From a virus: a DNA stretch of 42,337 nucleotides. How positions within the stretch are numbered: the first letter of the stretch is position 1; the number at the start of each line of letters is the position of its first letter. Below are positions 2,409 through 42,095 of the stretch, in pieces. The notes beneath the pieces are model-generated. The model had not been told where the DNA came from, made no database searches, and saw only the letters and a list, made by a program, of their open reading frames with translations. Made by a program: the position numbers and the translations under genes. Location: positions 1 to 42,337 of IMG/VR virus record IMGVR_UViG_3300020370_000010, one strand, 5' to 3'.

Positions 2409-3091
2409 TGTTTAAATTTATTGATACTGACCTCAAAGAACATGTTGAGGTTGATGCTATTGACCGTAATGGTACTAGATTCTACCCTATTCCTGGTGCG
2501 GATAAATATTATCCGAGTGTAACTTCCATCACATCGTTTAAGAACGCTGCTTTCTTCTCAAAATGGAGAAAGAGAATTGGTGAAACGGAAGCGAACAGAA
2601 TTACTGCCAGAGCAACCCAAAGAGGTACAGCATTCCATTCTATTACTGAAGATTATTTCAACGGTGAATTAGATACAGACAAATACTTGGAAAATAATCC
2701 ATTGTCTGTTAGAATGTTTCACATAGCAAAGCCTACGTTAGATCGTATCAATAACATTCATTGTTTAGAGACTTTTCTATACTCTCATTACCTTGGTCTT
2801 GCTGGTCGTGTAGACTGCATCGCTGAGTTTGATGGTGAGTTGGCAGTAATCGATTTCAAAACTTCAACAAAAGAAAAGAAGGAAGATTGGGTTGAACATT
2901 ATTTTGTTCAAGAAACTGCGTATGCAGCAATGTTCCTCGAACGTTCAGGTTTAGAGGTGCAGAAAATTGTCACACTTATCGCCACTGAAGAGGGATCTGT
3001 TCAAGTATTTCAGAAGTACAATCTTGATGACTATTTACAATTACTCAAATCCTATATTGAAGAATTTGTTAGGGGAAGAACGAATGCCTGA
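2408..3091 (+). CDS. PD-(D/E)XK family exonuclease
   Basis: The 227-residue protein has a RecB/Cas4-like nuclease core. RGTAFHSITEDYF (residues 72-84) is the N-terminal helix with its conserved His77. The core continues with GRVDCIAEF (D136) and AVIDFKTS (D149-x-K151). The later QETAYAAMF helix matches the family's QxxxY motif region. It should be a metal-dependent DNA exonuclease acting in phage recombination or host DNA degradation. It lies between phoH and the gp33-like gene and overlaps the latter by 8 bases. Confidence 0.85.
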   Translation: MFKFIDTDLKEHVEVDAIDRNGTRFYPIPGADKYYPSVTSITSFKNAAFFSKWRKRIGETEANRITARATQRGTAFHSITEDYFNGELDTDKYLENNPLSVRMFHIAKPTLDRINNIHCLETFLYSHYLGLAGRVDCIAEFDGELAVIDFKTSTKEKKEDWVEHYFVQETAYAAMFLERSGLEVQKIVTLIATEEGSVQVFQKYNLDDYLQLLKSYIEEFVRGRTNA

Positions 3092-3335
3092 TAAAGAAGT
3101 TGAGGACAAGTTTTTAACGCCCACTAAATTCTCTCAAGAAATTGAAGTATTGGTGAAGCGTAGCAGCGGTCTTATTTCATACATTGAAGCAGTAGTAACA
3201 TACTGTCAAGAGAATGAAATTGAGATTGAAACTGTTCCAAAACTAATGTCCAAACCCCTCAAAGAACGCTTGCGACATGAAGCAGAGCGTTTAAATTACA
3301 TGAAGAAAAGATCCAAAGGAGTTCTACCATTGTAA
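3084..3335 (+). CDS. 33: Late promoter transcription accessory protein, gp33-like
   Basis: An 83-residue protein starts at ATG 3084, inside the end of the exonuclease gene; a start at 2967 would overlap that gene by 125 bases. The segment SYIEAVVTYCQENEIEIETV followed by a KLMSKPLKERLRHEAERLN helix resembles T4 gp33 (SYLEATTAFLEENSIPE and following). Gp33 links the sliding clamp to RNA polymerase for late transcription, which fits the late-promoter boxes throughout this window. The assignment comes from remembered similarity over a short protein. A UvsY-type mediator would be an alternative for a gene in this place. Confidence 0.65.
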   Translation: MPDKEVEDKFLTPTKFSQEIEVLVKRSSGLISYIEAVVTYCQENEIEIETVPKLMSKPLKERLRHEAERLNYMKKRSKGVLPL

Positions 3336-38392: not shown

Positions 38393-38498
38393 GTATGATG
38401 AGCAGTTTGATAACTGCCAAGAGCAAGAAGATGATTGGGTTTCTTCAATTATCGGATCTGAAAATGATGCAATTTATGACGTTCTTTCTGAAATCTAA
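38370..38498 (+). CDS. Small acidic protein
   Basis: The 42-residue frame, MNKKLTVEYDEQFDNCQEQE followed by DDWVSSIIGSENDAIYDVLS, ends in TAATG shared with the ParB-like gene. The coupling to that gene suggests a shared transcript. The function is unknown. Confidence 0.5.
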   Translation: MNKKLTVEYDEQFDNCQEQEDDWVSSIIGSENDAIYDVLSEI

Positions 38499-39706
38499 TG
38501 ACAACAACTAATGAACCAAACGTAGTACAAGACTACGACAATCTCAATAGTGCATTTAATTCGCTATTCCCTGACTATCAACCCAATGAAAATCTTCTAT
38601 TTAATACTGAGTTATTAAATCGTTGTCGTCAGGAATGTAAGCATAAAATTGATGTTCAAGTTCTTGCTTATGGTGGCAAGATGGTTACAGATGTATTGGA
38701 GTTAATTGATATTCGTACAGTACATCCAGCAGGTAAAGAGATAAAGAATAATAAGACTGGTAAAGTTTTACCTAAAGGGTTTCAGATTCGTTTTGATACT
38801 AATATCGATATTGCACACAAGAATGATATTCTTGAGGATATATGGAATAAAGATTGGTTACCTTCTGCACCTCAAATGGTATTCTTTCGTTTACCTAAAG
38901 AGTATCAATATGTTGGTGATGATGGTGTTCAAGTAGTCTGGGGTATTATTGATGGGGCACACCGTTATGATGCTGCGGATGATGCTAACGAAACAAGTGT
39001 TATTGGTTGGTTGGTTGATATGGAAATTGATAAGATTCGTAAGTTTGCTAATGCTGAACTAAACAGAGTTAAGTATGGTGCAAAGGCAAGAACTAATAAT
39101 GATATTGCTGCGTCAGTTTGTATTTCATATAAAGATGAAACATCTGATCTTTATGCAAAGATTCAAGTGGCAGAGGAAGGAGATGTCAATCAGATTCTAC
39201 TTGATGAGATTATGACTTATCATGTTAAGAGTCAAACTGCTGGTGCGATTCTTCGCATTATTATGCACGATCCTGATGTAGTTGTTGACCGCAAAGAGTA
39301 TGACTCTAAGCGTATGTCTAACTACATTGCAGAGCATAAGTTAGATTGGATTAAAACTAAAGATCCTCATTGTGATTATGTTAGTGGTAAAGGTGTAAGG
39401 ATTATTGTTACACAAGCGTCAGGTTCTAACCATGTAATCGTTGCACATGATATATGTCAGTTGTTACGAGTTAGTAATGATCCTATTAGTGTTGTATTCG
39501 CAACTGCTATTACAGATAAGTTAAACAAGGCAAATTCACTTGAAAAACGTTTAGCATTTAAACGTAAAGTGATTGGAGTTATCAGGGTCATGGGTGAAGG
39601 GTATAAAGCAATGTTTGAGGATCTAACAGCAGTTAATCCTAACTGGTTATGTTTTCCTGAACTTGCTGATGAATTTGATGATGGTCTAATTAACATCACA
39701 GTGTGA
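38498..39706 (+). CDS. ParB/Srx-like domain protein
   Basis: The 402-residue protein carries VVWGIIDGAHRYDAADDA (D152-G-A-H155-R156), which matches the ParB/sulfiredoxin-fold motif D-G-x-H-R. The rest is helical, with two Cys/His-containing parts. ParB-like proteins in phages often stand beside DNA methyltransferases and may act as nucleases or CTP-dependent DNA-binding switches. Here it lies upstream of a nuclease and two methylases but is separated from them by a terminator-like hairpin. Its exact role is not known. Confidence 0.65.
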   Translation: MTTTNEPNVVQDYDNLNSAFNSLFPDYQPNENLLFNTELLNRCRQECKHKIDVQVLAYGGKMVTDVLELIDIRTVHPAGKEIKNNKTGKVLPKGFQIRFDTNIDIAHKNDILEDIWNKDWLPSAPQMVFFRLPKEYQYVGDDGVQVVWGIIDGAHRYDAADDANETSVIGWLVDMEIDKIRKFANAELNRVKYGAKARTNNDIAASVCISYKDETSDLYAKIQVAEEGDVNQILLDEIMTYHVKSQTAGAILRIIMHDPDVVVDRKEYDSKRMSNYIAEHKLDWIKTKDPHCDYVSGKGVRIIVTQASGSNHVIVAHDICQLLRVSNDPISVVFATAITDKLNKANSLEKRLAFKRKVIGVIRVMGEGYKAMFEDLTAVNPNWLCFPELADEFDDGLINITV

Positions 39707-39722
39707 CAATCGAACAACCTAC

Positions 39723-39750
39723 ACAGCATCCTACTCAAGGGTGCTGTTTT
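39723..39750 (+). terminator. Rho-independent terminator
   Basis: ACAGCATCC pairs with GGGTGCTGT (nine pairs, one G-T) around a seven-base loop and is followed by TTT. It separates the ParB-like gene from the nuclease and methylase genes. Confidence 0.7.
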
Positions 39751-39782
39751 GGTTTATATTATGAGTATCTAAGCAAAACACA

Positions 39783-40346
39783 ATGTTTACTGCAATATTT
39801 GAAGATGGATCTCTTCAGGAGTACATCATCCAAAATACTCAAGATCCTTGGGTAGGTACAAACTTTGAAGGATATGTGTTTATGTCACCTAAGCAAAAGG
39901 GTGAATTTGGTGAGCGTTTTGTTCACAAATACATGGAACTTCTTGAATATAGATTAGAACGTGCTGCTACTTCTACTGCTGGACATGATCGTATTGTTCT
40001 ACAGTATTTGGAGGAAGTAATGACTAGCAGGTATCTTACAGAAATTAAATTCTCTCTTGCTTGTCGTAATACTAAAGGTACTGTAACTGACGATAAGTTT
40101 ATTATTAATCATGTATCTGTAGGTAAAGATTGGGAAAGACTTATATTCTGTGGTATCAATCCTAATGAAGAGGATGTTCGTTTTGTTTTTATCACTAAAG
40201 AAGACTTTGAAGCACACTTAAAAACTGATAAACCATTATTCAATGTTCAACAAGGTGGAAAGAAAGTTGGTAATGATGACTATATTTGCACAAAAGTTGC
40301 AACTCTGCTAGAATGTGATTTCGTGAAGGATATTTCTGAATGGTAA
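39783..40346 (+). CDS. PD-(D/E)XK restriction endonuclease-like protein
   Basis: The 187-residue protein has GEFGERFVHKYMELL (E41/E44), AGHDRIV (D69) and LTEIKFSLA (E87-I-K89), the arrangement of a PD-(D/E)XK restriction nuclease. The middle IINHVSVGKDWERLIFCGIN with VRFVFITKEDF is a conserved block in nucleases of this type. It is five bases upstream of the first methyltransferase. The most direct reading is a type II-like restriction enzyme with its modification partners, though a phage nuclease acting on host DNA is also possible. Confidence 0.65.
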   Translation: MFTAIFEDGSLQEYIIQNTQDPWVGTNFEGYVFMSPKQKGEFGERFVHKYMELLEYRLERAATSTAGHDRIVLQYLEEVMTSRYLTEIKFSLACRNTKGTVTDDKFIINHVSVGKDWERLIFCGINPNEEDVRFVFITKEDFEAHLKTDKPLFNVQQGGKKVGNDDYICTKVATLLECDFVKDISEW

Positions 40347-40350
40347 ATTT

Positions 40351-41112
40351 ATGACTCTATTAGCATCCACTAAGAATATATCAAATCTACTGCTAGGTGA
40401 TTGTTTGGAGTTACTACCAACAATCGCAGATAATTCTGTAGATATGGTACTGTGTGATTTACCTTATGGTACAACTGCATGTAAGTGGGATAGTATTATA
40501 TCTCTTGATGAATTATGGAAACAATATAATCGAATATGTAAAGAAGATGCTGCAATGGTATTTACTGCTGCTCAACCATTTACAACTGTGTTGGCATCAT
40601 CCAATATCAAGAACTTTAAGTATGAATGGATATGGGAGAAACCGCAAGGAACTAATCCTATGAACTCTAAGATCATGCCATTAAAGTCACATGAGAATAT
40701 ATTGGTATTCTATAGAAAGAAACCAACGTATAATCCTCAGATGTGGTATTCAACTCCTTATAGTGGATTTAAATCTGATACTGCAAAGATAGGTGAAGTC
40801 TATGGTGAAGCACAGTCTAAACATAGAGACAATCCTGAAGGGTCACGCTACCCTAAGACTATATTGAAATATAAGCAAGAGAAGGGATTACACCCTACAC
40901 AAAAACCAGTAGGATTAATGGAGTATTTGATTATGACATATACCAATAAAGGTGAAACTGTTCTTGATAATACTATGGGAAGTGGTACAACTGGTCTTGC
41001 TTGTGCTAATCTTGATAGAAATTTTATAGGGATGGAAAGTGATGAGAAATACTTTAAGATAGCAGAAGATCGTATTGGATCTTTAAGTAATCCACTTACT
41101 GAGTTATTCTAA
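40351..41112 (+). CDS. Beta-class DNA methyltransferase (N6-adenine or N4-cytosine)
   Basis: The 253-residue enzyme has the beta-class order: catalytic DLPYG (36-40), then HPTQKPVGLMEYLI (181-194), then the S-adenosylmethionine motif VLDNTMGSGTTGLAC (D206 and GSGTT). The start LLLGDCLELLP is typical of the family. DLPY instead of DPPY is an accepted variant. Its stop overlaps the start of the second methyltransferase, so both are made from the same transcript. Its target sequence cannot be read from the gene. Confidence 0.88.
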   Translation: MTLLASTKNISNLLLGDCLELLPTIADNSVDMVLCDLPYGTTACKWDSIISLDELWKQYNRICKEDAAMVFTAAQPFTTVLASSNIKNFKYEWIWEKPQGTNPMNSKIMPLKSHENILVFYRKKPTYNPQMWYSTPYSGFKSDTAKIGEVYGEAQSKHRDNPEGSRYPKTILKYKQEKGLHPTQKPVGLMEYLIMTYTNKGETVLDNTMGSGTTGLACANLDRNFIGMESDEKYFKIAEDRIGSLSNPLTELF

Positions 41113-42095
41113 TGAGAGACAGAACTGATTTAAGAGACACAATACTATTTGGTGATTGTCGTGAAACATTACCTATGTTTAATGTTAAAGCGAGGATGTG
41201 TGTAACATCACCACCTTACTACGGTCTTAGAGACTATGGTGGAGAAGATTCACAAATAGGACAAGAGCAGAGTCCTGAAGAATTCATAGATGAGTTAGTT
41301 AAAGTATTTCGAGAAGTAAGAAATGTGCTTACTGATGATGGAACTTGTTGGGTTAATCTAGGTGATAGTTATTACAACTATAGAAAAGATGGTTGCATAC
41401 CTAAGCAAACATTCTCTGCTAATAGACAAGATCTACCTAAGACAACACCCAGAAGATCTAATAAACTTGTAGGATATAAAGATAAGGATCTTATTGGTAT
41501 TCCATGGATGTTTGCTTTTGCAATGAGAGCAGACGGATGGTATCTAAGACAAGATATAATATGGCATAAACCAAACCCTATGCCAGAGTCAGTAAAGGAT
41601 AGATGTACTAAAGCACATGAGTATATTTTTCTATTCAGTAAGAGTAAATACTACCACTATGATAATGAAGCAATAAAAGAACCCGCAAAGGACTGGGGTA
41701 CACGTGACAGAACAAATGGTAAGTATCACAATCCTGGAACTGGTCTATCTCCTCATACTGGTCTAACTAAATCCTATGAGAAGAAAAATAAGAGATCTGT
41801 ATGGACAGTAAACAAGAAACCATACAAGGGGGCACACTTCGCTACATATCCACCCGACCTGATTGAACCTTGTATCAAGGCAGGAAGCGAGAAGGGTGAC
41901 ATTGTATTAGATCCATTCATGGGATCAGGAACTACTGCTGCTGTGGCAAAATCACTAGGTAGAGACTACATTGGATGTGAGTTGCATGAAAATTATGGTG
42001 ACCTGATTAGGAAGAGAGTAAGTGAATATCATGTGCCAATCGAAGTAGTGTCACAGAATGGACTGACAGACCTGTTGGATAGTGCTATATTATAA
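41112..42095 (+). CDS. Beta-class DNA methyltransferase (SPPY type, probably N4-cytosine)
   Basis: The 327-residue enzyme has a catalytic TSPPYYGLRDY motif (32-42), common in N4-cytosine and some N6-adenine enzymes. WHKPNPMPESVKDRCTKAHE (151-170) is the typical middle block, and the S-adenosylmethionine motif VLDPFMGSGTTAA follows (D267 onward). It overlaps the first methyltransferase by one base. No coding sequence follows it in the window. Two enzymes beside one nuclease could modify the two strands of an asymmetric site or two different sites. Confidence 0.88.
   Translation: MRDRTDLRDTILFGDCRETLPMFNVKARMCVTSPPYYGLRDYGGEDSQIGQEQSPEEFIDELVKVFREVRNVLTDDGTCWVNLGDSYYNYRKDGCIPKQTFSANRQDLPKTTPRRSNKLVGYKDKDLIGIPWMFAFAMRADGWYLRQDIIWHKPNPMPESVKDRCTKAHEYIFLFSKSKYYHYDNEAIKEPAKDWGTRDRTNGKYHNPGTGLSPHTGLTKSYEKKNKRSVWTVNKKPYKGAHFATYPPDLIEPCIKAGSEKGDIVLDPFMGSGTTAAVAKSLGRDYIGCELHENYGDLIRKRVSEYHVPIEVVSQNGLTDLLDSAIL

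Follow-up and report, generated by a model that had tools for sequence, protein, structure and literature searches.

A cyanophage nuclease and its neighbouring methylase as a probable TCGA-specific restriction pair, with TCGA largely erased from most examined relatives that lack the methylase

Introduction

Restriction systems encoded by viruses have been described for chloroviruses and marseilleviruses (PMC7253447), and a restriction endonuclease can occur without a methylase, as in PacI of Pseudomonas alcaligenes, which one account explains by the lack of recognition sites in the carrier (PMC3488263). Here we analyze the virus record IMGVR_UViG_3300020370_000010 of IMG/VR, close to one end of which a nuclease gene is followed by two methylase genes, MT1 and MT2. 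The window is this entire record of 42,337 bases, itself probably a fragment of a cyanomyovirus genome, and its closest relative among the phages listed is Prochlorococcus phage P-SSM7, which matches 82% of the last 6.3 kb at 85% identity. A sequence-only reading of the window had proposed a type II-like restriction-modification cassette made up of a ParB-like gene, the nuclease and both methylases. Our analysis indicates that the nuclease and MT1 are likely a phage-borne, TCGA-specific type II pair, in which MT1 would shield the phage in the present case and loss of the site would do so in most MT1-less relatives.

Results

The nuclease and MT1 recur as a pair

All four open reading frames are located where the sequence-only reading had placed them, on the plus strand, and 4 bases separate the stop codon of the nuclease from the start of MT1. 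The features of this pair are:

39783..40346, plus strand: nuclease, 187 amino acids, PD-(D/E)XK; putative TCGA-specific type II restriction endonuclease
39912..39914, plus strand: codon of nuclease residue E44, invariant in the 79-member alignment
39987..39989, plus strand: codon of nuclease residue D69, invariant in the 79-member alignment
40041..40049, plus strand: codons of nuclease residues E87-I-K89 (ExK), 79-member alignment
40351..41112, plus strand: MT1, 253 amino acids, N6_N4 DNA methylase; putative cognate protector of the nuclease

The nuclease matches phrog_6927 (4e-79), and all 79 members of its family match the PADLOC profile REase_II (PDLC03515), the best at 1.5e-27 and the window protein only at 2.5e-5. 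Ten alignment columns, including E44, D69, E87 and K89, are invariant in the 79 relatives. Sequence searches against solved structures gave best E values of 0.09 for the nuclease and 0.77 for its profile. An AlphaFold2 model built from 73 sequences has a mean predicted local distance difference test score (pLDDT) of 92.1, and Foldseek returned eight PDB matches for it at E ≤ 0.001, from SPARDA complexes, the homing nuclease I-Ssp6803I and the restriction enzyme NhoI. Structural alignment gave Z scores of 10.7 for Eco15I (root-mean-square deviation 3.2, 117 residues aligned), 10.5 for I-Ssp6803I (3.0, 119), 10.3 for NhoI (3.6, 123) and 9.3 for Hjc resolvase (2.6, 106), while the scores of 6-7 for EcoRV and PvuII are at a level that possibly reflects just a common arrangement. 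The PD-(D/E)XK fold, on whose presence in a structure prediction the sequence-only reading had made its nuclease claim depend, is found in the model, and the catalytic residues are invariant; judged from the predicted structure, the protein is a PD-(D/E)XK enzyme. The window nuclease carries a 9-residue insertion in the interval between D69 and E87; the model is confident in this stretch, whose length is equal or similar in a few close relatives. Two scans of 84,980 bacterial and archaeal genomes with exact short patterns, which may miss distant relatives, found no relative of the nuclease.

Both methylases match the Pfam family N6_N4_Mtase (PF01555), MT1 at 9e-32 and MT2 at 1.2e-59, and MT1 also matches PADLOC MTase_II at 7e-85. 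A DLPY motif in MT1 (40456-40467) and an SPPY motif in MT2 (41208-41219) each precede a GSGTT stretch, an order that we take to be that of beta-class methylases. The Pfam matches thus bear out the claim of two methylases, and the motif order fits the beta class that had been assigned to them. In IMG/VR, the 80 loci nearest to the window nuclease were kept from 215 relatives. In 58 of the 80, the start of MT1 lies no more than 2 kb downstream of the nuclease; 17 lack MT1 despite enough sequence and five are cut. The proposal of a type II-like restriction-modification system on this virus is therefore supported for the nuclease and MT1, which form a recurrent pair. MT1 homologues reach far beyond cyanophages and were found in 557 phage records, in 545 of them at less than 60% identity.

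Most carriers of the nuclease without MT1 are purged of TCGA

Where a restriction enzyme has no methylase, the carrier's own DNA should lack the recognition site. Palindromic tetramers were counted against an order-1 Markov (dinucleotide) expectation, with order-2 as a cross-check. The 183-kb genome of phage S-SSM4, whose record contains the nuclease but no MT1, lacks TCGA altogether, against an expectation of 501, and a 177.7-kb IMG/VR record (G001) has 3 where 400 are expected. With the order-2 expectation the ratios stay at 0.00 and 0.01. Among the testable tetramers, S-SSM4 lacks only TCGA and CCGG, and in G001 none ranks below TCGA. Carriers of MT1 keep TCGA, with 58 observed and 68 expected in the window and 259 and 346 in P-SSM7.

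Further scans, some with MT1 queries and some with solitary-nuclease queries, brought the collection to 219 nuclease loci, 131 of them distinct. Thirty of the 131 were dropped for the TCGA comparison (15 of a TTAA branch described below, nine cut by a contig end, three with a different methylase nearby, L046, L266 and L268, and three with an expectation below 10), leaving 101 scored loci. A locus was called solitary if the 1.5 kb to each side held no methylase of ten seed kinds and the downstream sequence extended for 900 bases or more; entire records were searched for methylases for some solitary loci only. TCGA is wholly absent from 27 of 39 solitary loci versus 1 of 62 MT1-paired loci, and at or below 0.10 of expectation in 31 of 39 versus 13 of 62, with medians of 0.00 and 0.39. 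Among 16 palindromic tetramers, no other falls nearly as far as TCGA between MT1-paired and solitary loci. Lesser drops are seen for CCGG (0.12 to 0.00), TATA (1.11 to 0.97), TGCA (1.02 to 0.89) and ATAT (1.06 to 1.00), and the remaining tetramers increase. On a quick tree of the nuclease the MT1 state changes at least 8 times, and solitary purged lineages stand beside or inside MT1-bearing ones: L045 and its kin, solitary and purged, belong to a supported clade with L043, L097, L007 and L035, and L033, L034, L036 and L056 to a weakly supported clade with the group of the window. An MT1-like gene alone is not tied to the purge, since TCGA ranges from 0.06 to 2.13 of expectation across 46 loci that have an MT1 homologue but no detected nuclease, a few being low (L155 with 2 of 36, L111 with 7 of 48).

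We infer TCGA as the nuclease's site from the purge, and as the site of MT1 only from its association with kept TCGA. The nuclease would then cut unmodified TCGA in DNA other than the phage's own, while MT1 would methylate TCGA in the phage genome, probably at adenine, and thereby shield it. In the many relatives without MT1, the erasure of most TCGA from the phage DNA would amount to self-protection by target loss.

A second nuclease branch is associated with loss of TTAA

The nuclease of phage S-ShM2 is 28-29% identical to that of the window. In its genome TTAA is the lowest of the testable tetramers, with 0 observed and 963 expected, a result with which the order-2 expectation agrees, and TCGA stands at 0.75 of expectation; the genome encodes one D12 methylase and no N6_N4 methylase. 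S-BM3, of the same branch, has 76 TTAA against 884 expected, and the medians of the 15 loci of the branch are 0.10 for TTAA and 0.75 for TCGA. At L264, an S-BM3-type methylase lies directly downstream of the nuclease and TTAA is at 19 of 64. From these counts we infer TTAA as the likely specificity of the S-ShM2 branch, with a similar site-erasing solution. A solitary enzyme in a carrier free of its putative site is thus found in S-SSM4 (TCGA) and S-ShM2 (TTAA), and not in the window or in phage ACG-2014f. The annotated restriction endonuclease of S-BM3 (OQ319121.1, 3552-4049, minus strand) has a late start, and an intact frame of 165 amino acids runs from an upstream ATG.

The purges follow the nuclease, with exceptions

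As controls we used 19 cyanomyoviruses without the nuclease, verified by a search that found 5 of 5 carriers as a positive control, in segments of 25-50 kb each. TCGA is present at 0.43-1.10 of expectation in 18 of 18 evaluable controls and TTAA at 0.59-1.16 in 19 of 19. P-TIM68 is CpG-poor and not evaluable for TCGA (0 versus 5 expected); in its 25-kb segment (L353), ACGT, CCGG, GCGC, CGCG and TCGA are each expected at most 5 times.

Several observations weigh against a TCGA-specific pair with site erasure as its substitute. The nuclease of ACG-2014f is solitary and looks intact, and this phage, which lacks MT1, keeps 335 of 482 expected TCGA (0.70); it encodes one other N6_N4 methylase and two D12 methylases, whose specificity is not assigned. 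It is one of eight of the 39 solitary loci above 0.10, the others being L281, L284, L301, L305, L319, L337 and L339. A PF01555 search of 20 solitary contigs gave two hits over the cut-off, on the contigs of L284 and L301, both of which keep TCGA, and no hit over the cut-off at the other five of these seven loci, including the fragments of L281 and L339, which also keep it. TCGA is likewise kept at uncounted loci that are cut or have another methylase near: L335 (6 of 12), L336 (7 of 17), L270 (10 of 14) and L046 (13 of 39). In the TTAA branch, L258, L261 and L262, whose contigs gave no PF01555 hit, still have 0.3-0.45 of the expected TTAA, and L259, a cut locus, has 13 of 13. The MT1-paired phages are themselves depleted of TCGA, as the median and the 13 low loci given above attest, as if methylation were imperfect or MT1 had been gained recently. 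Tetramers are also purged where the nuclease family is absent, with CCGG lost from nearly all controls, GTAC from S-SM1 and Syn1, and CTAG from S-SM2, so a purge alone is no proof of a phage nuclease; as purges may have other causes, the case rests on the purge tracking the nuclease. The Fisher value of 8e-9 for solitary versus paired loci ignores relatedness, and 62:39 is not a natural ratio, as MT1 queries supplied some of the loci and solitary-nuclease queries others. A strict paired test on the tree gave, over 4 supported pairs, means of 2.6 for and 0.3 against, with 1.0 and 1.0 for the AGCT control; it cannot reach significance, because just 4 well-supported independent pairs exist. Because of these misfits (ACG-2014f, the other loci that keep the site, the depletion in MT1 carriers and the other purges), we hold the TCGA-specific pair to be likely and no more than that.

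Neighbouring genes and other missing tetramers

The remaining features of the proposed cassette are:

38498..39706, plus strand: "ParB-like" gene, 402 amino acids; neighbour in few lineages
39723..39747, plus strand: terminator-like hairpin in the gap between the ParB-like gene and the nuclease; 10 pairs, 5 of them G-C; RNA fold z -5.0
41112..42095, plus strand: MT2, 327 amino acids, N6_N4 methylase with SPPY motif; widespread cyanomyovirus orphan

MT1 and MT2 share one base, as expected from the overlap that had been described. MT2 orthologues occur in P-SSM2, P-SSM4, P-HM1, P-HM2, P-RSM4 and others without the nuclease, and also in the TCGA-purged S-SSM4, and among the scored loci the window, P-SSM7, L028/L029, L333 and L090 are the only ones with MT2 directly after MT1. 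By gene distribution, MT1 is the regular partner of the nuclease and MT2 a widespread cyanophage orphan outside the pair. L090 is a close relative of the window that keeps the ParB-like gene, MT1, MT2 and the helicase but has another open reading frame of 195 amino acids (2587-3174) in place of the nuclease. This frame matches no PADLOC profile, and TCGA at L090, with both methylases present and the nuclease replaced, is at 16 versus 24.9 expected.

The label "ParB-like" is not confirmed. No ParB profile was found for the protein in Pfam (E up to 1, 10 of 10 members) or in NCBIfam (window protein), the match to phrog_1504 is weak (3e-4, residues 175-232), and the sole point in favour of the label is a DGxHRxxAA-type motif that we take to be ParB/Srx-like. 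Its structure model (pLDDT 58.7) is too poor for use, and for this reason the weak resemblance of its C-terminal part to restriction enzymes (Z 5-6) was discarded. The gene was found in 3 GenBank records and 14 IMG/VR loci, and it ends 26-86 bp ahead of the nuclease in six distinct loci including the window, where the gap is 76 bases. The hairpin in this gap has a fold energy of -19.4 kcal/mol, and a scan found 7 such sites in 6.3 kb versus 2.4 expected. Of the terminator said to separate the ParB-like gene from the rest, the hairpin is thus present, while termination is only suggested because the T tract is short. P-SSM7 has no hairpin-type gap at this place, since the gene after the ParB-like gene overlaps it; its gene order is ParB-like, 2OG-Fe(II) oxygenase, nuclease, MT1, MT2 and, further along, the T4-GC36 helicase.

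The nuclease immediately follows the T4-GC36 helicase in S-SSM4, S-SSM6b, S-ShM2 and S-SSM2, where the 10 kb inspected contain no annotated methylase. In S-SM1, where GTAC is absent from 83 kb (253 expected), the same slot after this helicase holds SSM1_072 (L346:18523-19035, also in L239), an open reading frame of 170 amino acids with a DLID...ESK stretch and no match to a PADLOC or PHROG profile. As a solitary GTAC nuclease it stays a lead, being present only in the records of S-SM1 itself; Syn1 (L349), with 0 of 77 GTAC, has no match to it. Upstream of the helicase, ACG-2014a (L236:25682-27044) and S-CAM22 (L235:22918-24263) carry other nuclease-like or unassigned reading frames together with a methylase, and the surroundings of the T4-GC36 helicase resemble a place where restriction genes are exchanged. 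Most of the cyanomyoviruses examined (L230-L241, L347-L353 and the window) have little or no CCGG, some being kept in S-SM2, S-CAM7 and ACG-2014f. GCGC and CGCG are both at zero in the window, P-SSM7, P-SSM2 and P-RSM6, and CTAG in 25 kb of S-SM2 (L350) is at 0 versus 71 expected.

Discussion

The loss of TCGA and TTAA could be an answer to host restriction, with the phage nuclease serving another purpose. Avoidance of host restriction sites by phages has been described (PMC6286503), and most of the cyanomyoviruses examined are poor in CCGG, GGCC and AGCT, with or without the nuclease. The purges of TCGA and TTAA, however, follow the branch of the nuclease, one tetramer in each, and nuclease-free phages keep both, including those from the same strains. 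Among phages of strain WH8102, TTAA is at 0 of 963 in S-ShM2 and 0 of 43.5 in 10 kb of S-SSM2 but at 292 of 335 in S-SSM5; among those of WH8109, TCGA is at 0 of 28.7 in 10.5 kb of S-SSM6b but at 61 of 80 in Syn19 and 64 of 69 in S-SSM7. Because phages of one strain differ in this way, host restriction as the cause is improbable. The nuclease might instead be a partner of the helicase in repair or recombination and no restriction enzyme at all, an idea suggested by its position directly after the T4-GC36 helicase in S-SSM4 and S-ShM2, by the presence, in 30 of the 98 nuclease loci that span 8 kb or more, of a same-strand helicase homologue no more than 6 kb away, and by the structural likeness to Hjc resolvase noted above. 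A helicase ends within 200 bp ahead of the nuclease in only 4 of the 131 distinct loci, though, and adjacency of MT1 is common, so that a helicase-nuclease unit was set aside; the restriction endonuclease profile matches the whole family, and a resolvase would not explain the loss of a single tetramer. We consider a repair function very improbable.

The proposal that the four genes work as one epigenetic or partition cassette draws on their consecutive order in the window and on the short distance between the ParB-like gene and the nuclease at six loci. The sequence-only reading had suggested looking at whether the genes stay together in relatives, and they scatter: MT2 is mostly found elsewhere and independently, and the ParB-like gene, restricted to few lineages and without a ParB profile match, is separated from the nuclease by an oxygenase gene in P-SSM7. 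With MT2 and the ParB-like gene independent of the nuclease and MT1, a four-gene cassette is largely refuted and we give it hardly any credence. Within a TCGA-specific pair, the target is a separate question. We think that the most likely use would be early fragmentation of host DNA that feeds phage replication, followed by attack on co-infecting phages. The host chromosome is the first guess because the T4 genes for host DNA breakdown are missing in cyanomyoviruses and any substitute for them is termed undescribed in a review (PMC2984593). Host DNA is reported to break down within hours in infections with Syn9, P-HM2 and P-SSP7 (PMC7852597), and this breakdown does not need the present nuclease, because Syn9 and P-HM2 are without it. 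With the same restriction core, the pair could mainly exclude co-infecting phages and not be aimed at the host chromosome, which we regard as quite possible without thinking it probable. The Marseillevirus system leaves host DNA undegraded and has been interpreted as directed at competitors (PMC7253447), and the nuclease-free cyanophages examined keep TCGA and therefore could be cut. As a tentative generalization, somewhat doubtful as it stands, cyanomyoviruses may use exchangeable restriction enzymes with 4-bp sites as offensive shredders of host DNA, with immunity gained through a methylase or through site erasure, the missing tetramer being the site of the enzyme. If so, some T4-like phages without denA, ndd and denB would have an undescribed route of host DNA breakage.

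For the cultured phages P-SSM7, S-SSM4 and S-ShM2, the analysis yields a specific candidate nuclease whose site is predicted. The footprint in S-SSM4, a nuclease carrier that lacks MT1 and is free of TCGA over all 183 kb, is unusual, and the results suggest that the specificity of uncharacterized phage nucleases might be predictable from a missing word. Viral restriction-modification and a solitary restriction endonuclease in a site-free genome are already known. In the openly licensed literature searched we found no report of a phage nuclease family with two specificities in which methylase and site erasure are interchangeable as self-protection, and the word "restriction" occurs 0 times in the main text of the comparison of T4-like cyanophages by Sullivan and colleagues (PMC3037559).

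The locus resembles type II restriction-modification systems as captured by PDLC03515 in the profile match, the predicted PD-(D/E)XK fold, the adjacent N6_N4 methylase and the putative 4-bp palindromic site. It differs in being carried by cyanomyoviruses and other viral contigs, often with the methylase missing and the carrier's own sites then mostly erased. A possible breakage of host DNA that spares phage DNA recalls denA and denB of T4. However, T4 tells its own DNA apart by modified cytosine, whereas here the distinction would lie in the methylation or the absence of TCGA. As in the chlorovirus systems (CviAI and others), endonuclease and methylase are both encoded by a virus, in the present case a virus of prokaryotes with methylase-free relatives whose sites are mostly erased. 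PacI, as portrayed in the account cited above, shares with S-SSM4 and its like a restriction endonuclease without a methylase in a site-free carrier. In contrast to PacI, the phage nucleases have a putative 4-bp site that would be expected hundreds of times, and they occur in several lineages, with two likely specificities and with methylase-bearing relatives for comparison.

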